Below, one piece after another: positions 2,029 through 64,000 of a stretch of 64,000 nt of DNA (position 1 is the first letter of the stretch; the number at the start of each line of letters is the position of its first letter). The stretch comes from Chloroflexota bacterium (GTDB lineage: Bacteria; Chloroflexota; Anaerolineae; UBA2200). The translations under genes and the position numbers were made by a program. The stretch is taken from contig JACIWX010000003.1 in assembly GCA_014360755.1 (NCBI GenBank), positions 91,678 through 155,677 of the forward strand. Reading direction: 5' to 3'. The notes beneath the pieces were generated by a model that was not told the DNA's origin, did not search any database, and was given only the letters and a program-made list of their open reading frames with translations.

Positions 2029-2057
2029 TTGGCAGAACCGCGAAATCTCGCTATAAT
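2029..2057 (+). promoter_or_regulatory. Sigma-70-type promoter for the lactonase-like gene
   Basis: TTGGCA (2029-2034), a 17-bp spacer, then TATAAT (2052-2057). The predicted start near 2064 gives a leader of about 34 nt to the ATG at 2098. Confidence 0.75.
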
Positions 2058-2097
2058 GCGCCACATCAGTAGGAAATCTCTGTGATAAGAGCGCGCT

Positions 2098-2928
2098 ATG
2101 CTCAGGTTGCATGTCTTTAACACAGGTTGGGCTGCCGTACAAGAGAAACATCTCTATGTAGGAGGCAGCACTGCTACTCGTATTGTGCCGGTATTGTCCT
2201 TTGTCATTGAATATCCTAAAGGCCTCATCGTTTTTGATACTGGCCTAAACCCTGCCTTTGCCGCTCGCCCAAGGCAATACATTGGCTGGCTTGGCAATTC
2301 GCTATTTCCGTTTCGCTCTTTGCCAGGTATGAACCTCTCTGCGCAAATGCAAGCCCGTGGATTGGCGCCGGAGAAAGTGTCCCATGTCGTGCTCTCGCAC
2401 CTGCACTACGATCATACGGGTGATTTGCGCGCTTTTCCTCAAGCACGACTGCTTGTGTCCCGCCCAGAATGGCGAGCAGCACAATCGCCATTCCGGCGCT
2501 GGAGGGGCTATCTAGACAAAGAATATCGCGGGCTAACCATTTCTTTGCTAGACTTTCCTCTGTACAATGGCCAGACGCCTAACCGGGCACTAAAAGGCAA
2601 CTACGGCTTGGATTTGCTGGAAGACGGCAGCCTGATTGTAATACCCACGTTTGGTCATACCCAAGGACATCAATCTTTGCTCGTCTTTCTCCCCTATGGC
2701 GTTGTGCTGCTGGCTGGAGACGCTGTCTATGTGCTGGAAAACTATGCTAAGCCTGCCACACAACCCCATGCTCACTTCCCTGAAAGCGCCTGGCGCACGC
2801 TCATTGGGTTGCGCGCGCTGGTTAAAGGAGACCCCACTGCTGTCATCTTGCCCACCCACGATGACAGTATATTGCGTAAGCTGCAACGACCTGATATTGT
2901 GATTGGCGGCGCCTACCCAATGCCCTGA
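2098..2928 (+). CDS. Metallo-beta-lactamase-fold hydrolase, AHL-lactonase-like
   Basis: 276 residues with the metal-binding motif HLHYDHTG (residues ~102-109), a downstream His in TFGHTQGHQS, an Asp in LLAGDAVY and a late His in LPTHDD. This is the HxHxDH - H - D - H pattern of the dinuclear zinc beta-lactamase fold. The N-terminal layout (MLRLHVFNTG, IVFDTGLNP) matches the AiiA-like N-acyl homoserine lactonase group. The family hydrolyses lactones or other esters in the cytoplasm; the substrate here is not known and quorum quenching should not be assumed. The gene stands alone behind a good promoter, with only a weak ribosome site. Confidence 0.85.
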   Translation: MLRLHVFNTGWAAVQEKHLYVGGSTATRIVPVLSFVIEYPKGLIVFDTGLNPAFAARPRQYIGWLGNSLFPFRSLPGMNLSAQMQARGLAPEKVSHVVLSHLHYDHTGDLRAFPQARLLVSRPEWRAAQSPFRRWRGYLDKEYRGLTISLLDFPLYNGQTPNRALKGNYGLDLLEDGSLIVIPTFGHTQGHQSLLVFLPYGVVLLAGDAVYVLENYAKPATQPHAHFPESAWRTLIGLRALVKGDPTAVILPTHDDSILRKLQRPDIVIGGAYPMP

Positions 2929-2963
2929 TAAGGCGATCTCCCAGCCAGTTTCCAGCATTGCGG

Positions 2964-3551
2964 CTATTGGCGGTCCGGATAGAAACCGGGCTTGCACAGT
3001 ACTTCCATGATGCGCAAGTCAAAGAAAGCCTGGGCATTGGCAGGAAGGAGCACTACTGCGGTATCTGCACCGCGTCCGGTGCCACCAATAGCAATCATTG
3101 GCTCCCTTACACGGATCAAGCCGGCATCGGCAGCCATGAGAGCAATCTCACAAGCGACCTTCATGCCTTCGCCGAAGATGCGTAGGGTATACGCAACGAT
3201 TTCCTCCAGTTCGTAAGTTTGCAGCTTCTTGCGCACGGCGCGGCCAATCCCGCCGAAGGCATGCTGGCAAGTCAGGATGCGCCCGCCATTGGCTTCGATA
3301 GCCTTGCGGTTTTCGTCGGTCAATTCCTGAAAGTTAGGTTCTTTAAACCCCGTGCTATGCGTTACTGCAATCAGATTGTAGCCTTTGAATACCTCGGAGG
3401 CGCGCACTCCGGTCTGGCCTGTCGTGGTTGCCACTACAATCGATCGGATGCCAAGCTGTTCTGCGCGCGTTTTAGCAATTTGCAAGACGCGCTCTGTGTT
3501 CTCCTTGCCCGGTGTGTGGAAGTAAGTGCATGGAATTGTCGTTTCGTGCAT
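2964..3551 (-). CDS. Stand-alone pyruvate-kinase C-terminal (alpha/beta) domain protein
   Basis: 195 residues resembling only the C-terminal allosteric domain of pyruvate kinase: IRSIVVATTTGQTGVRASE is the domain's nucleotide-loop-like start and the catalytic barrel is absent. These free domains are widespread in anaerobes and archaea. Their function is uncertain; a role binding phosphorylated effectors is assumed from the parent domain. A clear AGGAGG lies 6 nt before the ATG. Downstream it is followed on the opposite strand by the lactonase-like gene; upstream is the TtcA-like gene, 17 nt away, so these two may form an operon. Confidence 0.8.
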   Translation of the reverse strand: MHETTIPCTYFHTPGKENTERVLQIAKTRAEQLGIRSIVVATTTGQTGVRASEVFKGYNLIAVTHSTGFKEPNFQELTDENRKAIEANGGRILTCQHAFGGIGRAVRKKLQTYELEEIVAYTLRIFGEGMKVACEIALMAADAGLIRVREPMIAIGGTGRGADTAVVLLPANAQAFFDLRIMEVLCKPGFYPDRQ

Positions 3552-3568
3552 TGGTTGCCTCCTGAGAA

Positions 3569-4345
3569 CTAGAGATGAGTTTGTTCAGAATCCATGATGC
3601 CCAAATCGTTGTCATACGCTTCAGGAAAATGCGGGTGCAAACCAGCCCGGAAAAGGTTGATTTTGACCTTGGGATACTCGTGCTCCAGCATGCGGATGAT
3701 GTCCCTCATCAATGCGCGACGCGAGTTGGAGCCATAGGGACAAGCAGTGGCTTGTACTGGAAAAGCACAGGCTTGCGCGAAACGGGCAATTCTCTTTTCT
3801 GGCAGATAGATCAGTGGACGAATGAGCGTGAACCGTCCTTCAAAGAACTGCCGCTTGGGGTACAGAGTCTCTACTTTGCCGTGAAAAATCAAGTTAAGCA
3901 GGGTCGTCTGCGCAGCGTCATCAGCATGATGCCCTAGTGCGATTTTGTTGCATCCGAGGCGTTGCGCTGCCTCGAAGATAGCCTTCCGGCGCAGGAAGGA
4001 ACATCGTGAGCAGTGGCTGGGTTGTTCGCCCGTGTCAACCACTTCTAAAGGTTGTAGGTGCAAGCCCACCGTCTCCAGTGCACTGCGTATATCGAGTGCC
4101 ATACATGGCGTGCCATCGGCGTGGTGCATCCTTACATGGATCGCTACCGTCTCGTACTTCTCTGGAGTGCTTTGCTGTCTGAGCCACAGCAAATACAGCA
4201 GCGTGAGGCTGTCTTTCCCCCCAGACACGGCTACGGCGATGCGATCTCCATCAGCGATCATCTCGTAATCACGGATGGCTTTATTCATGCTTTTCAACAG
4301 ATAGTAGGCTAGCCTGTCCTTGAGAAGGAGATTTCGAGCGCACAT
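3569..4345 (-). CDS. TtcA/TilS-type PP-loop tRNA-modifying enzyme
   Basis: About 258 residues. The ATP-pyrophosphatase P-loop is SGGKDSLTLLYLL (~residues 42-54), a CSRC pair follows (~116-119), and ALGHHADDAAQTTLLNLIFHG is the conserved second motif of TtcA, which thiolates C32 of tRNA using a 4Fe-4S cluster. A later Cys lies in ATACPYGS. I start at MCARN because the frame upstream runs back through a terminator hairpin. The frame could also begin at an upstream ATG (4393). TtcA itself is one option; archaeal-type Ncs6/TtuA-like 2-thiolation is another. Confidence 0.8.
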   Translation of the reverse strand: MCARNLLLKDRLAYYLLKSMNKAIRDYEMIADGDRIAVAVSGGKDSLTLLYLLWLRQQSTPEKYETVAIHVRMHHADGTPCMALDIRSALETVGLHLQPLEVVDTGEQPSHCSRCSFLRRKAIFEAAQRLGCNKIALGHHADDAAQTTLLNLIFHGKVETLYPKRQFFEGRFTLIRPLIYLPEKRIARFAQACAFPVQATACPYGSNSRRALMRDIIRMLEHEYPKVKINLFRAGLHPHFPEAYDNDLGIMDSEQTHL

Positions 4346-4362
4346 TTTGCCGAACCCAGGGA

Positions 4363-4391
4363 TAAAAATGGGGTGACATGAAAGCCACCCC
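4363..4391 (-). terminator. Rho-independent terminator after the 141-residue unknown gene
   Basis: On the minus strand GGGGTG and CACCCC (plus-strand positions 4386-4391 and 4370-4375) enclose a ~10-nt loop and are followed by ATTTTTATC. It lies between the stop at 4399 and the preferred start of the TtcA-like gene. Confidence 0.65.
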
Positions 4392-4398
4392 AACTTAC

Positions 4399-4824
4399 TC
4401 AGCCAGATTCAGGTACTGGCTTGATCCCTTTGTAAATCTGGCCTTTTGTCAACAGGCGCAGGATTGTCTCCGGGGGTTGTTTATCCACACGTTCGTGTAA
4501 TTCGAGGATAGAAAGCGGCTTATTGCCATTTGCCAAAAAGACGCGAAAAATGCTCTCAATGAGCGGTAATTCCGGCGTGATGTAATCTGGCTTGAGGCTA
4601 CAGCAAGAACGGATCGCTTCCCATACTGCATACACGCGGGTCACTTCTGCTGTCTCCGGATCGATCATATCCACCATTTGTGTATCCGGAGCGTCGCGGA
4701 GAGATTCACTGCACTCCGGGCAGAGAAGCTCCCTCATCAAAACGCGTATGTCTTTGTTCTGCTTTTCCCACCATGAAAAATCAATATGGAACTTGGTATG
4801 GACGGTTGGTCTCAGTAGTTTCAT
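4399..4824 (-). CDS. Unknown protein, translationally coupled to the 576-residue gene
   Basis: 141 residues, soluble, no recognised family. A Cys pair sits at LLCPECSES (~34-40) and another in SCCSLKP, hinting at a metal site. The C-terminal part (PLSILELHERVDKQPPETILRLLTKG) reads like a small winged-helix unit. Its ATG overlaps the stop of the upstream gene as ATGA, so the two are almost certainly co-translated and may act together. A terminator follows. I do not assign a function. Confidence 0.6.
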   Translation of the reverse strand: MKLLRPTVHTKFHIDFSWWEKQNKDIRVLMRELLCPECSESLRDAPDTQMVDMIDPETAEVTRVYAVWEAIRSCCSLKPDYITPELPLIESIFRVFLANGNKPLSILELHERVDKQPPETILRLLTKGQIYKGIKPVPESG

Positions 4825-54176: not shown

Positions 54177-55784
54177 ATGGCCAAGTATATTTTTGTTACG
54201 GGTGGGGTAATCAGTTCGGTAGGCAAGGGGGTTACGGCTGCCTCCATCGGACGGCTGATCAAGAGCCGTGGCGTGAAGGTCTCTATCCAGAAGTTGGACC
54301 CGTATCTCAACGTAGACCCCGGCACGCTCAGCCCTTACCAACATGGCGAGGTGTTCGTGCTGCAGGATGGCAGCGAGACTGACCTGGACCTGGGCCATTA
54401 TGAGCGCTTTATCGATGAGAACTTGCTGGCATCAAGCAACGTAACTACTGGACAGGTCTACTCCGAGGTGATTGCCAAAGAGCGCCGCGGGGATTTTTTG
54501 GGCGGCACGATCCAGGTGATTCCCCACATCACCAATGAGATCAAGCGCCGCATTGGCCGTGTGGCAGCGGAAACGGGCGCCGAGGTAGTCATTGTCGAGG
54601 TCGGGGGCACGGTTGGCGATATCGAGGGCCAGCCTTTTCTTGAAGCGATCCGCCAAATGCGCAAGGACGTGGGCCGCGAAAATGTGCTGTACGTGCACGT
54701 TACCTACGTGCCCTACATCAACGCGACGGGCGAACTGAAGAGCAAGCCCACGCAGCATTCGGTGATGCAACTGCGCAGCTTTGGCATCCAGCCAGACGTG
54801 ATTGTCTGCCGCTCCGATTACCCTATAGACGAAGCCTTGAAGGACAAGATTTCCCTCTTCTGCGACGTGGAAAAGCGCGCTGTCATCCCCCTGGTTACGG
54901 CAAAAACCGTGTACAAGGTGCCCCTTATCCTCGAGGAAGCCGGGCTTGGGGTATTCATCAGCGAACGCCTAGATTTGCCCCCCGAACCCGATTTGGCTTT
55001 CTGGCGCCATCTGGTGGCGGCGATCGAGCGCCCCAAGCCAGAACTGCGCATTGGGGTGGTAGGCAAATATGTTGCGCTGTTGGATGCGTATATCAGCGTA
55101 CGTGAAGCACTGTTCCATGCAGCACTTGCCCAAGGCTATAGCGTGCATATCGATTGGATCAGTTCCGAGGACTTGGAAAAGGGACGGGGGTTGGAGCGCT
55201 TGGATCATGTGGCGGGTATCGTCGTGCCTGGTGGCTTTGGCTATCGGGGCATCGAGGGCAAGGTCATTGCAGCGCGTTACGCCCGTGAGCATAAAAAACC
55301 CTATCTCGGGTTGTGCTTGGGCATGCAGGTGATGGTTATCGAACTAGCACGGTATGCGCTGGGCAGTGATGAGCCCAATAGCGCCGAATTTGACCCCTCC
55401 ACCAAGTACCCCGTGATTGATTTGATGCCTGAGCAGCGTGCCATCTCTGAAATGGGCGGCACCATGCGCCTGGGCGTCTACCCTTGCCAAGTGGTCCCTG
55501 GGACTAGAGCAGCAGCAGCGTACGGAGAGCCAGTGGTGTACGAGCGGCACCGGCACCGTTTCGAATTGAACAACCAATACCGTGATTTGTTAGCCAGTGC
55601 GGGGATGGTGTTCAGTGGGCTTTCGCCAGATGGACGATTAGTGGAGATTGTGGAATTGCGCGACCATCCTTGGATGGTGGGATGCCAATTTCACCCCGAA
55701 TTCCGATCAAGGCCGGGCAAACCGCACCCGCTGTTCAGCGGGTTTGTGGAGGCTGCGATAAAATTTGCCAAGAGTAACGAGTGA
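54177..55784 (+). CDS. pyrG: CTP synthase
   Basis: 535 residues. N-terminal synthetase domain ([24 protein letters not shown]-loop; [19 protein letters not shown]), linker and C-terminal class I glutaminase: oxyanion loop VPGGFGYRG, nucleophile Cys in YLGLCLGMQ, and His/Glu in [12 protein letters not shown]. It makes CTP from UTP and glutamine. No standard SD is seen; heptad repeats precede the ATG. Its last codons (SNE-stop) lie within the next repeat tract. Confidence 0.97.
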
Positions 55785-55894
55785 GGAGTAATGAGTGACG
55801 AGTGTCGAGTAACGAGTAACGAGTGCAGAAAGGAACACGCAATACGCAATACGTCACACTTATCACTTATCACTCATCACTCATCACTTATCAC
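55771..55894. repeat. Inverted heptad-repeat tract between pyrG and the transaldolase gene
   Basis: GAGTRAY-type heptads (55771-55826) are followed by the complementary form (ATCACTT/ATCACTC units, 55852-55894), so the RNA can fold into a long imperfect hairpin. The tract includes the last pyrG codons. Confidence 0.75.
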
Positions 55895-55916
55895 ATCCCC
55901 ATTACAAGGAGGACCC

Positions 55917-56666
55917 ATGGAACTCTTTCTCGATACTGCGAATGTGGACGAAATTCGCGAAGCAGTGAAGTTGGGGTTGATCAGCGGGGTAACGACCAAT
56001 CCCAGCCTGATGATGCGCGCAGGGCGCGGGGATTATAAAGAGGTTACGCGCGAGATCTGCTACCTGGTCCAAAACCGCATCAGTGTTGAAGTGGTGAGCC
56101 TCGATGCGGAAGGCATGCTGGCAGAGGCGAAAGAAATCGCCACTTGGTCGCCCCACGTCGTGGTCAAGATTCCTACGATTGCAGAAGGTCTGAAGGCGAT
56201 GAAGATGATCAGCCGGCAGGAGGTAGACCTGGATCGGCTGTGCCAGGGTTGCCCCTGGCTGGGCAAATGCGAGACGGACATCGCGCTTGCCCGTGAACTT
56301 GCTGCTTCCTGGGGCATCCGCGTCAATGCCACGTTGGTTTTTTCACCGAACCAGGCACTGTTCGCTGCCACTGCCGGCGCCAATTTTGTCTCGCCCTTTG
56401 TGGGCAGGCTCGATGACATTGGTGAAGACGGCATGCAGGTAGTTGCCGACATCGTGCAAATCTTCGAGACCTATGGCATGGATGCCCAAGTGATCGCTGC
56501 CAGCATCCGCCACCCCCTGCACATCACCCAGGCAGCGCTGGCTGGTGCAGACATCGCCACCGTGCCTTATGACGTCTTGATGAAGGCGCTCAAGCACCCC
56601 TTAACCGACATCGGGGTGGAGCGCTTCCTCGCCGACTGGGCGAAGGTCACAGGGAAGAAGGAGTAG
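55917..56666 (+). CDS. Fructose-6-phosphate aldolase/transaldolase-like protein with Cys-rich insertion
   Basis: 249 residues from MELFLDTANVDEIREAVKLG, with AAGGAGG 5 nt before; the frame runs back into the repeats. Family motifs: GVTTNPSLM near the start, Schiff-base Lys84 in VVVKIPT, and ATLVFSPNQALFAATAGANFVSPFVGRLDD. The usual FSA/TalC protein has ~215 residues; here an extra ~27 residues follow LKAMKMIS and carry CQGCPWLGKC (C109, C112, C118). FSA-type enzymes join dihydroxyacetone or similar donors to aldehydes, formaldehyde included in vitro. It heads the aldehyde-related cluster. Confidence 0.88.
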   Translation: MELFLDTANVDEIREAVKLGLISGVTTNPSLMMRAGRGDYKEVTREICYLVQNRISVEVVSLDAEGMLAEAKEIATWSPHVVVKIPTIAEGLKAMKMISRQEVDLDRLCQGCPWLGKCETDIALARELAASWGIRVNATLVFSPNQALFAATAGANFVSPFVGRLDDIGEDGMQVVADIVQIFETYGMDAQVIAASIRHPLHITQAALAGADIATVPYDVLMKALKHPLTDIGVERFLADWAKVTGKKE

Positions 56667-57052
56667 GTTTGTAGTAAGCGCTTCAGCGCTGAGAAGAAAC
56701 GTTGCGTGGGGGGAAGTTTGCGTATAGGTTTTGTAAGGGGCAGTAACGAAAGGGGGACGGAAATGTCTGCTCGACTGTGCATACCGCAACAGGAACGAAC
56801 CTGACAACTGGAACAACAATGTTGGGTTTCGGGTGGTGGCTTACGGTCTTCTTGGAAGCCAGAATGCTGCACGGTTTGATAGCTGAGCAGCCGAGGCATT
56901 GAAGAGCGGTGCGACCTGTTCCCGGCTGGGGTAGCCCCAGGCAAATAGAGAAGAGCCCCGCCCCCTGTGGTAGGCCAACAAGTCGAAGCCTGGGGTGGGG
57001 CAACGTCTAAAAAAGCGGCTGACCAAGCCGTTCGATAGCAGACGATTAGGGT
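56667..57052. other. 386-bp non-coding segment with GC-rich hairpins
   Basis: It opens with GTAGTAAGCGCTTCAGCGCT (56671-56690), a short palindromic repeat related to 58116-58140. Further on, CTGGGG-TAG-CCCCAG (near 56923-56937) and a 10-bp stem GCCCCGCCCC/GGGGTGGGGC (56955-56964, 56992-57001) suggest structured RNA. The minus-strand frames here have no ribosome site and odd composition; I see no gene. Confidence 0.4.
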
Positions 57053-57082
57053 TTGTTACTTGGTCAGAGGCTAGCGTATAAT
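57053..57082 (+). promoter_or_regulatory. Promoter of the TIM-barrel/DapA-Fae genes
   Basis: TTGTTA (57053-57058), 18 bp, TATAAT (57077-57082). The leader contains heptad repeats (TCACTCGTCACTCATTACTC) and AAAGGAGG before ATG 57148. Confidence 0.6.
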
Positions 57083-57147
57083 CTGCTGCCAAAGTTCACT
57101 CGTCACTCATTACTCATCACGCAAAATTCCAAAGGAGGAAAAGAGCA

Positions 57148-58098
57148 ATGGAGCTGGATAAAGTATCTACCGCAATGGAGAAAGTGGGCATTCCAGGCCG
57201 CGATGCCTATGACCTGCCCACGAGCACCAAGCGCTTCCCGGACGGCGCTTGGTACCGCATGGAAGTGTCCGGAGTGGAGCGCCCCCAAGTGCTCGAAGCC
57301 TTGGTGGACGAAGCGGACAAGCGCAAAATGCCCATCCACCGCCTGATTTCCGTGGTGATGGGCGCCACGCTCTTGGATAAGGCTGAATTGCGCGCTTTCG
57401 CCCAAATCGCTGCCGACGCCAAGATGGAAGTCATCCTCACGCCAGGCCCGCGTTCTGCCTGGGACACGGGCAGGCAACTGGTTACGCCAGAAGGCGGGCT
57501 TTCGGGCTTGCGCTTTCGTGGTTCGGATCAACTGCGCGCAGTCATCGCCGACATCATGCGCTGCATAGACCTGGGCTTTCGTGGTTTCCTGGTCATAGAC
57601 GAAGGCTTGCTCTGGCTGCTGAATGAGATGAAGAAGAACGGGGACATCCCGCGCGAGGTGGTCTTCAAGGTCTCTATCTACGCCGGGCACGCCTCGGCTG
57701 CAGGGGGCAAACTCCTGGAGATGCTGGGCGCAAGCACCTTCAACCCACTGGGGGATTTATCTCTGCCGCAGTTGGCGTCCATCCGTCAGGGTTGCAACAT
57801 CCCGTTAGATTTACACATCTACCTGGCGGAGTCTTTTGGTGGCTACAACCGTTTCTACGAAGGTCCGGAGATGGCGCGCCTCTGTGCGCCGTGCTATTTC
57901 AAGATCGAACCTGGGCCAGCCTGCGCCGCAGGGCCTGGGGCGTTGTACAAGCCGTGGACGAGCGTGGATGCCCTTTCTTTCCTGGCGCGCGAGAAGGTCA
58001 AATATGCGCAGATCATCCACGAACTGATCCAGGAGAACTTTCCAGAAGCCAAGATGTCCGGGATTGGCCCGGCAGACCTGGCGGTTCCAAAACCGTGA
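57148..58098 (+). CDS. Unassigned TIM-barrel-like protein
   Basis: 316 residues, soluble. Alternating strands and helices (HRLISVVMGATLLDKAE; KMEVILTPGPRSAWDTG; LGFRGFLVIDEGLLWLL; VFKVSIYAGHASAAGG; PLDLHIYLAESFGGYNRFYE) suggest a beta/alpha barrel. The DLHIY and FGGYNRFYEGPE pieces faintly recall U32-peptidase-like barrels, but I cannot confirm this. Conserved-looking Cys, Asp, Glu and His could bind metal. AAAGGAGG precedes the ATG. It lies between the transaldolase-like gene and the first DapA-Fae fusion and probably shares their pathway. Confidence 0.55.
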   Translation: MELDKVSTAMEKVGIPGRDAYDLPTSTKRFPDGAWYRMEVSGVERPQVLEALVDEADKRKMPIHRLISVVMGATLLDKAELRAFAQIAADAKMEVILTPGPRSAWDTGRQLVTPEGGLSGLRFRGSDQLRAVIADIMRCIDLGFRGFLVIDEGLLWLLNEMKKNGDIPREVVFKVSIYAGHASAAGGKLLEMLGASTFNPLGDLSLPQLASIRQGCNIPLDLHIYLAESFGGYNRFYEGPEMARLCAPCYFKIEPGPACAAGPGALYKPWTSVDALSFLAREKVKYAQIIHELIQENFPEAKMSGIGPADLAVPKP

Positions 58099-58115
58099 GA
58101 CAGGTGTCTGGATAG

Positions 58116-58140
58116 GTTTGTCGTGAGCGCTTTAAGTGCT
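58116..58140. repeat. Short palindromic repeat, second copy
   Basis: GTTTGTCGTGAGCGCTTTAA and following bases match 56667-56692 (GTTTGTAGTAAGCGCTTCAG) at most positions; each follows a stop codon by 0-17 nt. Confidence 0.5.
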
Positions 58141-58218
58141 AGAAATGCGCTGGAGTGTGCGCTATTAACCCAAAGTGCTTTTGCTGCATCAAAAGTGATT
58201 TACAAAGGAGAAAATCAC

Positions 58219-59649
58219 ATGAAGAACGTCGCGTTCAAACCGCACGGTGTGTTGCCCGCTTTGGTAACACCGTTCACTGCTGATGAGGAAGTGGATGAGG
58301 CGGGACTGCGGGCGTTGGTGCGCTATGTCTTGCCTCACGTGGATGGCGTGGTCCCCTGCGGCACAACGGGCGAGTTCGTCTACCTCACGCCCGATGAGCA
58401 GAGGCGCATTATTGAGATCGTGGTGGATGAGGTTGCCGGGCGTGTGCCGGTAGTTGCCGGTACGGGTGCCGCCTCCACCAAACAAGCAGTGCAGTTGGCG
58501 CGCGCCGCTCAGGAAGCGGGAGCCAGCGCGTGCCTGGTGGTCACGCCGTTTTTCCTCCATCCTTCGGACAAGGGCATTTACCAGCACTTCTATGAAATCG
58601 CCCAGGCTGTGGACTTGCCTATCATCATGTACAACATTCCCCAAGTTGTGGATGCTTATCTTCCGCGTACGGTCATCGAAGACCTGGCTGACATCCCCAA
58701 CATCGTCGCCCTAAAAGATTCTTCGGGCAATCTGACCTATACCATGGAAGTGCTGGAGATGACCAAGGGCAGGCTGGATGTGCTCATCGGGCACGATGAG
58801 GTGGTCTTGCCGGCTTTGGCTGGCGGCTGCAGTGGCATGATCCTCGCTAGTGCGCAGGTCTTTCCGGAAGTATGGCAAAAAGTGTATGCCGCGGTGCAAG
58901 CGGGTGACTTGGAGACGGCGCGGGCGCTGCAGCGTAGTGTGCAGAAGTTAGCGCGCATTTTCTGCCGCCATGGCGGAGGAGTAGCGGTCAAGGCGGCGCT
59001 GAACATGATGGGCATCAAGGTGGGCGGGCCCCGCCGGCCGTTGCTTCGGCAAGGCGGCGTGCTCATCAATGAGGTGCGTGCCGAGATACGCCTGGAGTTG
59101 GAGAAGTTGGGCAAGATCAGCATGCCCCAGGTGGAGATCGAGGCTCCGCGCGAGCCTTTGCCGGAGAGGTTTGCCCATTTGGGGTTGACGGCGGATCTTC
59201 TGCAGTCGAATGGTGTGCGCATGGGCACCGCTGTAGCGGGCGAAGGCGCGGAAAAAGTGCAGATTGACTTGGTGGCAGGACCCAAGAATGGCCCCGTTGG
59301 CGATGCCTATGCGCTACAACTTACCTACCCGCGTCAGGGGCACGAGGCTTTGACCGCTATCCTGGAGCCCAATTTGACAGTGCGACCAGCCACGCTCATC
59401 GTGCCGGTCGTGGAGCTGAAAGATTTGCGCCAGGCGAACATGATTTACGGACCTACGCAATCCGCCGTAGGCAAAGCCATTGCCGATGGCTTGGCTTCCG
59501 GTTTGATACCGGTCTCCGCCATGGCGGAAGAAGTCATGTTGGCGCAAGTTACTGTCCATCCCCAAGCATTGGACCGACATCAACTCTATGGGAATGCTTA
59601 CATGGCTATGGGTGAGGCATTGCAAAACGCATACAATGGAGGACGCTAG
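58219..59649 (+). CDS. DapA-like aldolase fused to a formaldehyde-activating enzyme (Fae) domain, paralogue 1
   Basis: 476 residues from [10 protein letters not shown], with AAAGGAG 8 nt upstream. Residues ~1-300 are a DHDPS/NAL-family barrel: GTTGEFVYL, Tyr138 in IIMYNIPQ, Schiff-base Lys166 in [10 protein letters not shown] linker leads to a Fae domain (~330-476): [73 protein letters not shown]. Fae condenses formaldehyde with tetrahydromethanopterin. The His of the AHIDL motif, the proposed general base (His22 in Methylobacterium), is Gln348 here, so this copy may bind rather than catalyse. This domain pairing is not one I know as described. Confidence 0.85.
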
Positions 59650-59651
59650 AG

Positions 59652-59846
59652 ATGGAGTGCAAACAAGAGCAGAATAAGGTGACTTGCACCTGCACCTATG
59701 AACCATGCCCACGCAAGGGCATCTGTTGTGAATGCATTGCCTACCACCGCCGCTACGGTGAGCTGCCAGGCTGCCTGTTTCCACCGGAAGTGGAGCGCAC
59801 CTACGATCGCTCCATCGCGCGCTTTGTAGCCTGTTATAAGCGCTGA
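59652..59846 (+). CDS. Small Cys-rich protein (DUF6485-like)
   Basis: 64 residues with nine Cys: [22 protein letters not shown] then LPGCLFP, and one near the end. The pattern matches the small DUF6485 family of anaerobes, likely a metal-binding protein. Start ATG is 2 nt after the fusion gene's stop, and GGAGG lies within the end of that gene. It stands between the two DapA-Fae paralogues and is surely co-transcribed with the first. Confidence 0.75.
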
Positions 59847-59907
59847 GCATGTCTTGCTATTTTGTATCGTGGTGCGCTTTTGAGATACCGAAATGCTCAC
59901 TACGAAT

Positions 59908-60096
59908 GAGAGTGTTGAAAGACCCTGTCAGTGTCATGCTGAACCTTCGCCCTGAGCCTTGCCCTGAGCGAAGCGAAGGGGAAGTGAGGCATCTCACAGT
60001 ACTTGGGAAAATACAGCTAAAGTTACGCGAGACCCCTTCGTTGTACTCAGGGCAAGGCTCTTCGCTTGCTCAGGGTGATAAGATTTTCAACACTCT
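59908..60096. mobile_element. MITE-like palindromic element, copy C (189 bp, inverted)
   Basis: Begins GAGAGTGTTGAAAG and ends TTTTCAACACTCT. It is flanked by the exact 8-bp repeat CTACGAAT (59900-59907 and 60097-60104). It lies in the orientation opposite to copies A and B and is longer, through extra CCCTGAGCGAAGCGAAGGG-type palindromes. It separates the Cys-rich gene from the second DapA-Fae gene. Confidence 0.88.
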
Positions 60097-60163
60097 CTAC
60101 GAATCTTTGCAGACATCCTCATCATTGGATTAAAAGGATGTCCTAGCATGAAGGGAGTTGAAG

Positions 60164-61633
60164 ATGAATAAGAAACCAGAATGGTTTAAAGGGATTTTCC
60201 CAGCCTTGGTAACTCCATTTGCAGATGGCAGGGCAATTGATGAAGCCGCGTACCGTTCCTTGATCCGCTTCGTCCTGCCGCACGTGAATGGCGTGGTGCC
60301 GGTGGGCACGACCGGTGAGTTTGTTTATTTGACAGAGGAGGAGAAACGCCGGGCGATTGCCATTGCTCTGGATGAGGTGGCAGGACGCGTCCCAGTAGTT
60401 GCGGGCACGGGCTGTGCCAGCACCCGCGATACGGTCGCTCTGACGCGCTATGCCAAGGACGCGGGAGCACAGGCTGCTCTGGTCGTAGCCCCTTATTACC
60501 TCAAGCCCGCCTACAATGAAATTTACGAGCATTATGAAGCGGTGAGCAAGGTCGGCTTGCCGATTATCCTCTACAATATCCCCCAGTGCGCCGGCACCCA
60601 TTACGAGTGGTGGACGGCAGAGGGGTTAGCCCACCTGGACAATGTCGTTGGCATCAAAGATTCCAGCGGGGACATGCCATTTTTGATGGCTCTGTTCGAG
60701 AAAATCAAAGGGCTGGTGGGCATCTTCTGCGGCCATGATGAGATCATCACCGCCGCCCTGGCGGCAGGAGCAGATGGTGCCATCCTTGCCAGTGCCAATC
60801 TCATCCCCGATGTCTGGCAGCAGATTTATGCTGCCGTGCGCAACGGCGACTTGGCGCAGGCGCAGGCTTTACAGGCAAAGATCCAGATATTGGTGCGCCT
60901 CATCACCCGGCAAGGTTCTGTGCAGGCGGTCAAGGAGGGGCTGCAGATGATGGGGCTCCCGGTGGGCAATGCGCGGCTGCCGATGATGCCTGGCGATGCC
61001 TTTCGCCGTGAAGACCGCGAAGACCTGCGCTGGCAACTGGAGAAGTTAGGCAAGATCCCCCTGCGGGCAATAGAATATGAGTTGTGCGGCAAGACGGTGC
61101 GCACAACCGTTCCGGCTACGCCCCAAACGCCACGCCGGGTCAGTGGTTTTGCGCTGAAGATCGGCGAGGGGTTCGCTGGGCCGCCCTTCTTTGAACTGGC
61201 GCACATTGACTTGCTATTGGGAGAGCGCGGCGGGCCTGTGGACAAAGCCATTGCGCAGGCGCTTACAGTGCCCCATCCAGGCCATGAAGTACGCCTTGTC
61301 TACGAGCGCCCGCGTACGCTGCTTGTGCCGACCGTTACTCTGCGCACGGACAAACAAGCAGAGCATGTTTATACCTGGGCTACCAACGGGGTTGTGCAAG
61401 CGATCGAGGCGAGTATCACAGATGGCTTTCTACCTCGGGAGGCGCTAGATGATCTAGTCATGATTGCCAACGTGTTTGTCCACCCCGCGGCAGCCAACCG
61501 CAGACGCATCGAGGTGAACAACTACAAGGCAATGCGCGCCGCTATCCGCAAAGCCATCGAAGGCCGTCCAACCTTGGAAGAACTTTTGTACGAAAAGCAA
61601 GCAGCACGCCATCCGTTCCGGTATGCGCCGTAA
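60164..61633 (+). CDS. DapA-like aldolase fused to a Fae domain, paralogue 2
   Basis: 489 residues from MNKKPEWFKG, with GGGAG 6 nt upstream. DapA-type barrel ~1-300: [11 protein letters not shown], Tyr137 in IILYNIPQ, Schiff-base Lys165 in VGIKDSSGD. Fae domain ~325-480: FELAHIDLLLGERGGPVDKAIAQAL in parts, LVPTVTLRT, DDLVMIANVFVHPAAANRRRIEVNNYKAMRAAIRKAIEG and ending ARHPFRYAP, where known Fae proteins end in a HPF motif. The catalytic His is kept (His347). The usual second-strand AVLEPNLP is replaced by LVYERPRTL. It could capture an aldehyde released by its own barrel. It converges on the AOR gene. Confidence 0.86.
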   Translation: MNKKPEWFKGIFPALVTPFADGRAIDEAAYRSLIRFVLPHVNGVVPVGTTGEFVYLTEEEKRRAIAIALDEVAGRVPVVAGTGCASTRDTVALTRYAKDAGAQAALVVAPYYLKPAYNEIYEHYEAVSKVGLPIILYNIPQCAGTHYEWWTAEGLAHLDNVVGIKDSSGDMPFLMALFEKIKGLVGIFCGHDEIITAALAAGADGAILASANLIPDVWQQIYAAVRNGDLAQAQALQAKIQILVRLITRQGSVQAVKEGLQMMGLPVGNARLPMMPGDAFRREDREDLRWQLEKLGKIPLRAIEYELCGKTVRTTVPATPQTPRRVSGFALKIGEGFAGPPFFELAHIDLLLGERGGPVDKAIAQALTVPHPGHEVRLVYERPRTLLVPTVTLRTDKQAEHVYTWATNGVVQAIEASITDGFLPREALDDLVMIANVFVHPAAANRRRIEVNNYKAMRAAIRKAIEGRPTLEELLYEKQAARHPFRYAP

Positions 61634-61650
61634 GTGCGGCCGTGGGTATG

Positions 61651-63612
61651 CTAGCGATGTGCGTGCAGCAAGGCTTCCAGGCCTAGTATCTGAACCGTTT
61701 CAGGCGAGGGCCAGCCCGTAGCAGGGTCAATGCCCATGACGGAAAAGTAGCCTGTGGACATTGCGCCCGTGTCCAGCGTTATACCTGCCAAGGGTCCCGC
61801 TTCCAGAGGAGGGTCGCCGCGCTCGCGGGCAGGCAGCTTGACTTGCTCTGGTGTGATGCCTTCACGGGCATTAAAGGCGTGGCGCAGGGCTTGGATGCGC
61901 CATCCTAAGCGCAGAAAATCCGCTTCACTTACTTCCCAGCCTGTCGCAGCCTGCAGCCAATCCAGGATAGGCGGTTCACCCATCAACAGGCTGAATTGGC
62001 ACATGCCCAAGGAATCAAAAGCACGCAGCACTTGCATAACCACAGCCATTTCCGCGCCTTTGGCGGAATAATCATAGCGCGCTGCTAACTGACGCCCACT
62101 CCGCTTGAGATAGCGGATCATAGTAGGATTGGCAGTCATCCCGCTGAGTGTAGCGGTGTGGCGGCCCGGTGCCGGGTCCAGCCAATAGCCGACAGCCACG
62201 CCAGGTTCGTAAAGTCCGCGATGCATGGGCAGTTCCTGGCCCCCAGCGTGTACAGCGGCTTCTTGGGCAGCAGGGCTTGCACGTGAAGCGGCGTGCCGTA
62301 TGCCATCTGCCAGCCATTCCCCCAGACCGGGCTGACGGGCAGCGATACGTTTAGTCAGTTCTACGATTGCCTGGCTATCTCCCCAGTGAAGGGGGAGTTC
62401 ACCCGCGAGTTCGGGAGGCAACCAGCCACGTTCAGAACACTCAATGGCAAAAGCCACGGCCACGCCGGTGGAGATGGTATCCAGCCCCGCCAGGTTACAG
62501 ATCTCATTGCATGCCACGACTGTATCCAGGTCGGCATTCAGCAGCAGGGGGCCAAAAGCAGCCAATGTCTCGTATTCAGGGCGATGGCCGGTGCCGCCAT
62601 TGGGCAGTCGGATGGTCGCTCCACAGGCCAGTGGGCAACTGTGGCAGGCGTATGGTTTGATTTTGTTACGGATCACTGCCTCATCGCTGAGGTTTTCAGC
62701 CATGCTGACTGGGTAGTCTCGCACACTTGTGCCCGTCCAATTACGTATGGGCGTGTCATCCAGAGCCACCAGCAAGGCAGTCGCTGATGCAGTCCCGTAG
62801 AGGCGGTAGTTGTCCATGATCATCTGCAACGGGCCACTGGTGGGTTTGAAGCGGAGGCGGCGCAAAAAGGGAGCAAATGCATGGAGAAACTTGGGCATCA
62901 AGGGCATCCAGCGGGCGGGTTGGCGACGGAAAAGTTGGCGGTAGCCTTTTGTACTTTGGTCAAAGGCTTCCTTGTCAGCCAGGGGCGGCGATGCTCTGCC
63001 TCGCGCCGCGATTGCTTTGAGATTTTTGGAGCCCATCACGGCACCTAGACCGCAGCGCGCCGCAATACGGCCGCCTTCGTTGACGATGCCGGAGATGAGG
63101 GAGCGCTTTTCCCCGGCAGGCCCGATGCAAGCGACCTGCACATCTGATGAAGTAGCCTGGCGGATGGCTTCTTCCGTTGCGACCGTATCTAGCCCCCATA
63201 ATGTTGTAGCATCGCGCAGTTCAGCGTGTTGATCGTCCACATAAAGATAAACGGGTTTTGGCGCGATGCCATAGACAAATATGCCATCATAGCCCGCTCC
63301 ACGCAGGGCAGGGCCAAATCTGCCCCCACCGTTTGCCTCTCCCCAGCCGCCGGTGAGCGGTGACTTGGCTACAACCATAAAGCGGCCGCTGAAAGGCGCA
63401 TGAGTGCCTGTGAGCAAGCCTGGCAGGAATCCCAACATATTGTCTGGACCAAGGGGGTCAGTGCCAGGTGGGATATGTTCATAAAGCATGCGCACGCCCA
63501 GCCCGTACCCTCCCAGGTACTGGCGGTAGACCTCATCTGGCAAGGTTTGCTCCTCAATATGGCCTGTGGACAGATTGACAAATAGCACCCTTCCCCAATA
63601 TCCGTTTGGCAT
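61651..63612 (-). CDS. Aldehyde:ferredoxin oxidoreductase (tungsten/molybdopterin type)
   Basis: 653 residues, slightly over the family's ~610. N-terminal AOR domain: GRVLFVNLSTGHIE, LGGYGLGVRMLYEHIPPGTDPLGPDN, SPLTGGWGEANGGGRFGPALRGAGYDGIFVYG in parts. 4Fe-4S ligands: CHSCPLAC (~residues 318-325) plus the Cys of DSLGMCQFSLLMG near the C-terminus. The family oxidises aldehydes to acids with a bis-pterin tungsten cofactor, passing electrons to ferredoxin; strictly anaerobic. GAGGAG lies 6 nt before the ATG. It lies 22 nt downstream of a class II aldolase gene, so the aldolase product may be its substrate. Confidence 0.94.
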   Translation of the reverse strand: MPNGYWGRVLFVNLSTGHIEEQTLPDEVYRQYLGGYGLGVRMLYEHIPPGTDPLGPDNMLGFLPGLLTGTHAPFSGRFMVVAKSPLTGGWGEANGGGRFGPALRGAGYDGIFVYGIAPKPVYLYVDDQHAELRDATTLWGLDTVATEEAIRQATSSDVQVACIGPAGEKRSLISGIVNEGGRIAARCGLGAVMGSKNLKAIAARGRASPPLADKEAFDQSTKGYRQLFRRQPARWMPLMPKFLHAFAPFLRRLRFKPTSGPLQMIMDNYRLYGTASATALLVALDDTPIRNWTGTSVRDYPVSMAENLSDEAVIRNKIKPYACHSCPLACGATIRLPNGGTGHRPEYETLAAFGPLLLNADLDTVVACNEICNLAGLDTISTGVAVAFAIECSERGWLPPELAGELPLHWGDSQAIVELTKRIAARQPGLGEWLADGIRHAASRASPAAQEAAVHAGGQELPMHRGLYEPGVAVGYWLDPAPGRHTATLSGMTANPTMIRYLKRSGRQLAARYDYSAKGAEMAVVMQVLRAFDSLGMCQFSLLMGEPPILDWLQAATGWEVSEADFLRLGWRIQALRHAFNAREGITPEQVKLPARERGDPPLEAGPLAGITLDTGAMSTGYFSVMGIDPATGWPSPETVQILGLEALLHAHR

Positions 63613-63634
63613 TTGTGCTCCTCAATGGATTAGA

Positions 63635-64000
63635 TTAGGCGATGCCTGCTGCTTTGAGCATTTCCACCGTGTCTGGTGGCAAAGTGGCGGGCTCTTTGCC
63701 GAACAGTTTGCAAGCAAGCAGAACTTGGATGACTTCCTCGATGGCCATGGTACGGTTAGCCGCTTGCCGCAGCGTCCAACCCACCGTCAGCAAGCCATGG
63801 CATTGCATCAGAACTGCCGGGCTGTGCTGCAATGCCGCTACCACTGCCTCGCACAGTTCCGGTGAGCCAGATAGATAATACGGTATGACTTGTGTGTTCA
63901 TGAAGGGGATGGCGTCTACGGTGATGGGTGGGATGCTTCCGTTGATCAAGCCCAATGCTGTACACAACCTGGCATGGCTATGGATGACGGCTTCGATCTC
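63635..64000 (-). CDS. Class II aldolase/adducin family protein (N-terminal part outside the window)
   Basis: Open to the window edge; the visible 121 residues begin EIEAVIHSHARLCTALG. The HSHA pair and the His of LMQCHGLLTVGWTLRQA are the zinc ligands of FucA/AraD-like class II aldolases, and the C-terminal helices (EEVIQVLLACKLFG) follow. Such enzymes cleave sugar phosphates to DHAP and an aldehyde (for example lactaldehyde from fuculose phosphate). It is co-oriented with the AOR gene, 22 nt upstream of it. Confidence 0.85.
   Translation of the reverse strand, partial: EIEAVIHSHARLCTALGLINGSIPPITVDAIPFMNTQVIPYYLSGSPELCEAVVAALQHSPAVLMQCHGLLTVGWTLRQAANRTMAIEEVIQVLLACKLFGKEPATLPPDTVEMLKAAGIA

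Follow-up and report, generated by a model that had tools for sequence, protein, structure and literature searches.

Several described enzymes resemble parts of a group of four genes found in a Chloroflexota bacterium, within a window of 64,000 nucleotides (G000:C17:91678–155677, in a genome of 2.98 Mb that is 94% complete). The group encodes a barrel protein, two fusions of a DapA-type aldolase to a domain like the formaldehyde-activating enzyme (Fae), here called fusions A and B, and a small cysteine-rich protein of family DUF6485. Fae-Hps (PRK13307), the archaeal formaldehyde-activating enzyme/3-hexulose-6-phosphate synthase, likewise joins Fae to a formaldehyde-forming or formaldehyde-consuming aldolase and also occurs in Bathyarchaeia (five proteins tested). 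Unlike Fae-Hps, the fusions described here have a DapA-type Schiff-base aldolase as the partner, carry Fae at the C-terminal end and, in bacteria, are duplicated into complementary halves. The Fae of M. extorquens (PDB 1y5y/1y60) belongs to the same family (E 1e-21 to 1e-22), whereas the window copies are fused, each is missing part of the conserved Fae set, and no Mch was detected in the genome that encodes them. With the DapA/NAL/KDG-aldolase superfamily (PF00701) the fusions share the Schiff-base lysine, the tyrosine and the GTTGE-type motif; in contrast to DHDPS, they are fused to Fae and lack one characteristic arginine. PanB (ketopantoate hydroxymethyltransferase), a metal-type enzyme unrelated to the fusions, shifts a one-carbon (C1) unit between a 2-oxo acid and folate and would thus be similar in reaction type, but it has no Fae. 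In E. coli, an engineered pathway transfers the C1 unit of 4-hydroxy-2-oxobutanoate to tetrahydrofolate with release of pyruvate, and the paper concerned calls this compound absent from canonical metabolism and its use as a C1 donor an engineered pathway (PMC8719824). Two further papers bear on the same engineered chemistry in E. coli (PMC8879981; PMC8224422). Searches of open-licence PMC literature turned up no paper on a DapA–Fae fusion, none on DUF6485 and none describing the Fae active site.

An earlier, sequence-only reading of the window took the 8 kb from position 55917 to the window end as one candidate aldehyde-handling gene cluster composed of an FSA-like aldolase, the barrel, the two fusions, the cysteine-rich protein, an aldehyde:ferredoxin oxidoreductase (AOR) and a class II aldolase. 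All of these genes are present. Comparison of neighbourhoods in relatives bore out the barrel, fusions and cysteine-rich protein as a conserved unit, and this unit is the core (barrel, fusion A, DUF6485, fusion B) and not the full 8 kb; of the proposed scheme, the core stands and a chemistry of formaldehyde and a C1 pterin is favoured, while AOR and the class II aldolase drop out as members. On the plus strand, the barrel gene (57148-58098; 316 aa, U32-like family) is followed by fusion A (58219-59649; DHDPS 9e-74, Fae 5e-38), the DUF6485 gene (59652-59846; 64 aa, PF20095 at 34.3 bits against a cut-off of 24) and fusion B (60164-61633; DHDPS 1.5e-74, Fae 7e-37). Both fusions place the DapA-type domain N-terminally and Fae C-terminally. 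They exceed the NCBIfam dapA equivalog cut-off of 206.15 bits (A 228.6, B 213.5) as well as the Fae equivalog cut-off of 118.05 bits (TIGR03126; A 129.9, B 143.6), and they do not reach the 274-bit cut-off of the Fae-Hps model PRK13307, which matched the Fae part only (114.6 and 98.7 bits). Domain E-values of 1e-37 to 1e-85 (fusions and AOR), together with Fae fusions in 25 of 100 related genomes, show that the fusions are not chance. Annotation of such proteins as "dapA" would mislead metabolic models of these genomes. For fusion A, the ATG at 58219, with AGGAGA upstream, was preferred over the listed start of the open reading frame (ORF) at 58123; the listed ORF of fusion B starts at 60158 (TTG), and 60164 is used here. 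The conserved intergenic DNA between A and B is the DUF6485 gene, and an Rfam search of 55000–62000 gave no match. A 94-aa ORF at 59849-60133 was considered for the cysteine-rich protein and rejected, with no convincing relative in the nine loci tested.

The Fae domains of A and B are divided in a way that is not seen in archaeal fusions present as single copies. In the latter the Fae set is complete: the histidine of the AHID motif, which we take to be catalytic in Fae, and the PNL-type loop are present in 36/36, YGP in 35/36 (one masked) and the HP tail in 35/36 (one truncated). Fusion A keeps the PNL loop and YGP (23/23 each) and has the AHID histidine in 2 of 23 and the HPF tail in none of 23; fusion B keeps the AHID histidine and HPF tail (18/18 each) and has the loop and YGP in one of 18 each. 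The window copy of A retains the PNL loop and RQA/YGP and is missing the AHID histidine and HPF tail; that of B retains the AHID histidine and HPF tail and is missing the PNL loop and YGP. The exceptional B copy comes from L014, an archaeal locus that carries the barrel, A and B and is intermediate in appearance. The Fae halves of A and B are thus complementary, and the losses follow a lineage-wide pattern. A simple reading would be one duplication, after which the Fae site was divided between two proteins that must work together, and from the complementary halves an obligate heteromer of A and B is predicted. The own genome has no Fae beyond A and B, and 22 of the 25 Fae-positive genomes likewise have two Fae matches and no more. 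The pair offers a clear, testable case of an active site shared out between paralogues. In a tree with three unfused DapA proteins, 77 fusions form one clade. The outgroups used leave its branching unsettled: single-copy archaeal fusions are placed within the A-plus-B group, and the node that unites A with its L014 copy has a support of 0.68.

The aldolase half, in turn, retains the machinery of its superfamily. The 77 fusions were selected by length and by motif, with shorter or truncated ones left out; the Schiff-base lysine, the catalytic tyrosine and the GTTGE-type motif are each kept in 77/77, whereas the DHDPS arginine after YNxPx, presumably the residue that binds the semialdehyde carboxylate in DHDPS, is found in 0/77. 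Pyruvate is the usual donor substrate of the DHDPS/NAL superfamily, and DapA-type sites are built for it. The domains, their fusion and these catalytic residues are solid observations, and so are the complementary Fae halves.

Linkage and co-occurrence in relatives are equally solid. In the comparison set of 100 related genomes (own included), a close barrel homologue, defined by E<1e-170, is present in 22 of the 25 Fae-positive and 7 of the 75 Fae-negative genomes (p=3.7e-13); counted by family, the figures are 9/11 for Fae families and 5/33 for others (p=1.2e-4). Where a genome has both, the barrel lies within ~2.2 kb of a Fae domain in 15 of 22 cases, a figure taken from match coordinates; in the remainder it is 60 kb distant (G006) or on a separate contig (six genomes). 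DUF6485 sits between A and B in L003, L046, L047, L048, L049, L007 and L011, and near the barrel in the Fae-negative loci L077 and L083. Gene calling took the longest ORF, and antisense ORFs masked true genes in several high-GC loci (L050, L057, L059, L062, L091 and L092 among them); the script-based linkage counts given below for archaeal loci (c43, barrel and UxaA-type genes) are therefore lower bounds.

In a scan of genome contigs, the fusion turned up both in Chloroflexota and in four loci of Bathyarchaeota. Across the class Bathyarchaeia, any Fae is present in 84 of 151 genomes, and among 36 loci drawn from the lower-scoring archaeal Fae matches, 35 encode DapA–Fae. The remaining locus (L176) encodes the known Fae–Hps fusion, as do four high-scoring controls, and was left out when the fusions were counted. 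The Fae-Hps proteins of L194, L195 and L197 carry an extra ~85-100 residues at the N-terminus that are helix-turn-helix-like in appearance. At L164, a gene for trans-4-hydroxy-L-proline dehydratase (2031-4406; a glycyl radical enzyme, above cut-off) and an activase-like gene lie ~2–3 kb from the fusion. At L166, L170, L171, L173, L174 and L188 the fusion is near a conserved cluster resembling genes for non-canonical homocysteine synthesis, which encodes methan_mark_16-type, NIL/ferredoxin-type and COG2122-like proteins.

The best-supported mechanism, to which we assign a probability of roughly 0.5, is that the core acts as a hydroxymethyl-exchange module that would transfer formaldehyde from a 2-oxo acid to a pterin or back. 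The DapA domain would form a lysine Schiff base with the 2-oxo acid, most likely pyruvate, and would form or cleave its bond to formaldehyde, the one-carbon aldehyde unit. The Fae domain would pass formaldehyde to or from the reduced pterin as methylene-pterin, with no release of free formaldehyde, and A and B, derived from one complete archaeal-type fusion, would each supply half of the Fae site. The preferred, unproven net reaction is 4-hydroxy-2-oxobutanoate (2-keto-3-deoxytetronate) + H4folate = pyruvate + methylene-H4folate, which would be reversible, and the barrel, or the alternative partners c36/c43 described below, would probably make or use 4-hydroxy-2-oxobutanoate. Here we infer which substrate and pterin are used and in which direction, that A and B form a heteromer, and what the barrel and DUF6485 do. 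The proposed net transfer of C1 to tetrahydrofolate with release of pyruvate is like that of the engineered E. coli pathway, whereas here the route would be natural and would use two fused domains and a formaldehyde intermediate (PMC8719824). The data suggest an undescribed enzyme pair in anaerobic bacteria and archaea for natural C1 transfer between a keto acid and a cofactor without release of toxic formaldehyde. If so, a formaldehyde-channelling enzyme would join the C–C bond chemistry of pyruvate to the C1 cofactor pool, the unnamed barrel family and DUF6485 would gain a concrete function, and Wood–Ljungdahl organisms would have an additional C1 entry point.

Gene context provides further evidence. 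PanB adjoins the barrel in three Fae-negative genomes (G078, G039 and G010), in G078 with DUF6485 too. The PanB genes (L077 5137-5985(-), L081 6042-6959(-) and G010:C262:304-1077) form operon-like arrays with the barrel, and those of L077 and L081 pass the equivalog cut-off. PanB beside the barrel where Fae is absent suggests the same hydroxymethyl-exchange chemistry as for DapA–Fae. A sugar-acid context is hinted at by galactarate/altronate-type (UxaA-type) dehydratase genes next to the fusion in L167 and L186, by a gene of the mandelate-racemase family close to a barrel of 41% identity in Thermomicrobium, and by an IolN-type gene that adjoins a divergent barrel; these hints are few and leave the direction undecided.

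These observations could be extended to a natural C1 pathway that depends on 4-hydroxy-2-oxobutanoate and is shared by Anaerolineae-like bacteria and Bathyarchaeia. The keto acid would be produced by the unknown barrel (or c36/c43); sugar acids would give rise to C4 keto acids, which form the C4 rung of the keto-deoxy sugar-acid ladder and would be split by the two-protein DapA–Fae machine; the composite Fae site would pass formaldehyde directly to tetrahydrofolate or tetrahydromethanopterin (H4MPT); the C1 units would feed the Wood-Ljungdahl pathway; and PanB-type enzymes would serve the same role in related genomes. This scheme is bolder than the exchange mechanism and rather improbable.

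The cofactor of the own genome is probably tetrahydrofolate. The sequence-only reading had proposed a look for genes of pterin C1 carriers elsewhere in the genome. For folate, FTHFS and MTHFR were found; for H4MPT, Mch (PF02289, methenyl-H4MPT cyclohydrolase) was not found in the own genome, at its 94% completeness. FTHFS lies at C17:326738-328573, and there are two MTHFR matches. The surrounding region (G000:C17:314994-342921; L122, L123), on the same contig as the window, is an apparent folate Wood-Ljungdahl cluster in which the genes around FTHFS, read from sequence, encode MTHFR and presumably a FolD-type enzyme, CODH and acetyl-CoA synthase. Because Mch was not found and the FTHFS/MTHFR cluster is present, folate is the likelier cofactor here, and H4MPT was rejected for this genome. 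FTHFS occurs in 23 and MTHFR in 24 of the 25 Fae-positive genomes. Mch is present in 10 of the 100 genomes, 6 of them among the 25 Fae-positive ones, and in 9/32 genomes with Fae or a close barrel vs 1/68 others. In L101, L102 and L103, mch belongs to an apparent bacterial H4MPT operon in which the other genes, judged from sequence, are fhcD, fhcC and one that is ATP-grasp-like.

Several points weigh against hydroxymethyl exchange as described. In its canonical form Fae assembles as a homopentamer, a symmetry that alternating A and B subunits would fit poorly. The preference for pyruvate draws on family knowledge. Only 2 of the 35 archaeal loci retrieved with the fusion have a UxaA-type dehydratase gene next to it, and no enzyme that supplies 4-hydroxy-2-oxobutanoate was identified in the own genome, in which no search for a tetronate dehydratase was made. 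The p-values assume independent genomes, except at the family level. The Fae of M. extorquens works with H4MPT (PMC8879981), and Mch was not found in 19 of the 25 Fae-positive genomes, so that the folate reading needs a changed specificity.

Two other explanations are unlikely. The fusions might replace PanB, using methylene-pterin to form ketopantoate or a different hydroxymethylated 2-oxo acid. PanB is indeed present in only 3 of 25 Fae-positive and 53 of 75 Fae-negative genomes (p=2.8e-7), and its position beside the barrel in three Fae-negative genomes is consistent with such a replacement. However, PanC and PanD are found in 0/25 Fae-positive genomes each, which indicates that the standard pantothenate route is absent and not patched, and among the 65 genomes without PanC the contrast drops to 3/25 vs 18/40 (p=0.007). 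The barrel-linked PanB of G039 and G010 is moreover an extra copy, with another PanB and PanC elsewhere in the genome, and DapA-type sites are, from family knowledge, suited to pyruvate. Equally unlikely is a role in detoxification or sensing, with Fae only as a scavenger or regulator and DapA disposing of formaldehyde by condensing it with pyruvate. In its favour, each paralogue is without one half of the Fae site, and known Fae consumes formaldehyde (PMC8879981). This explanation sits poorly with the complementary, lineage-wide loss of the Fae halves, with lysine and tyrosine in all 77 fusions and with a strongly conserved barrel partner.

A supply of homoserine, in which methylene-pterin and pyruvate would give 4-hydroxy-2-oxobutanoate for transamination to homoserine, is more improbable still. 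Homoserine dehydrogenase was not found in 7/25 Fae-positive vs 7/75 Fae-negative genomes (p=0.04), and the homocysteine-type cluster lies near the fusion in 6 of 35 archaeal fusion loci, but the dehydrogenase is present in 18 of the 25 Fae-positive genomes, the own one included, and five of the seven genomes without a match are <90% complete. Least probable is the scheme of the sequence-only reading, in which sugar or acid cleavage yields aldehydes for both the pterin and AOR, with ferredoxin recovered: the enzymes are neighbours in the window and in a same-genus genome, yet in the rest of the class the AOR/aldolase block does not adjoin fusions, archaeal fusions have AOR nearby at background frequency, and the comparative data leave the path from sugar through aldehydes and AOR to ferredoxin unsupported.

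Under hydroxymethyl exchange, the barrel would probably be an enzyme of 4-hydroxy-2-oxobutanoate. It is 65-89% identical across the Chloroflexota and Bathyarchaeia loci, has no match in Pfam or NCBIfam even at E<=10, and found nothing above noise among PDB sequences; profile searches of the barrel and c36/c43 against PDB sequences likewise gave no match. PF01136 (peptidase U32) does not match the window barrel at E<=10 and matches three divergent homologues, two above and one below the cut-off. The AF2 model (mean pLDDT 64) is TIM-barrel-like, and Foldseek/VIA-align 2 gave a class II FBP aldolase (Z 13.0), MTHFR (Z 12.3) and the U32 protein Mk0906 (Z 11.6); no function can be drawn from these scores because many TIM barrels score similarly at pLDDT 64. 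For c43/c36 the model (pLDDT 33) shows no usable fold. The two are related (hhalign P 91, E 9e-7), c36 coming from two Chloroflexota and c43 being archaeal; hhalign of the barrel is suggestive only with c43 (P 48) and shows no relationship with c36. Four genomes with c36 or c43 next to the fusion were tested (G011, G101, G103 and G104), and none gave a close barrel; G103 has a divergent barrel only. By their distribution in Anaerolineae-like bacteria and Bathyarchaeia, the barrel and c36/c43 look like interchangeable partners of the fusions. Of the 35 archaeal loci retrieved with the fusion, 14 have c43 and 3 have the barrel, not always as an immediate neighbour (3.6 kb off in L163, 6 kb in L167). 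On a Polaromonas plasmid, the neighbourhood of a c43 homologue (54%) includes an unfused dapA and genes for a TRAP transporter and a GlcD-type oxidase. An Enterobacter chuandaensis plasmid (L098) carries a distant barrel relative (28%), annotated as a U32 peptidase, within an apparent small-molecule cluster that also encodes an aminotransferase and two redox enzymes containing iron.

Downstream of the core, the minus strand carries AOR (61651-63612; both AFOR domains, PF01314/PF02730) and the C-terminal 121 aa of the class II aldolase (63635-64000; PF00596), which continues past the window end. Stop positions confirm that the two blocks converge at 61633/61651. The class II aldolase, whose continuation was read in L067 and which has a homologue in L046, belongs with AOR, an FGGY kinase and a 2-hydroxyacid dehydrogenase to a convergent block, a neighbouring but separate operon. 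Elsewhere this block stands beside the fusions only in the same-genus genome G001 (L046). In the 33 of 35 archaeal fusion loci that passed the script's pattern, AOR is within 2.5 kb of the fusion in 4/33, against 10.8% of random windows from the same loci. The full 8 kb was rejected as one cluster, with the AOR/aldolase/kinase block separate and AOR linkage at background. Upstream of the core, the FSA/transaldolase-type protein (55917-56666, plus strand; TIGR00875 at 272.3 bits against a cut-off of 245.95) is a possible accessory of the module. FSA is near the barrel in nine loci of four families, mostly beside pyrG, a position that makes it a candidate member only. Its CxxC-x5-C insert, possibly a metal site, is conserved in 7/7 aligned relatives.

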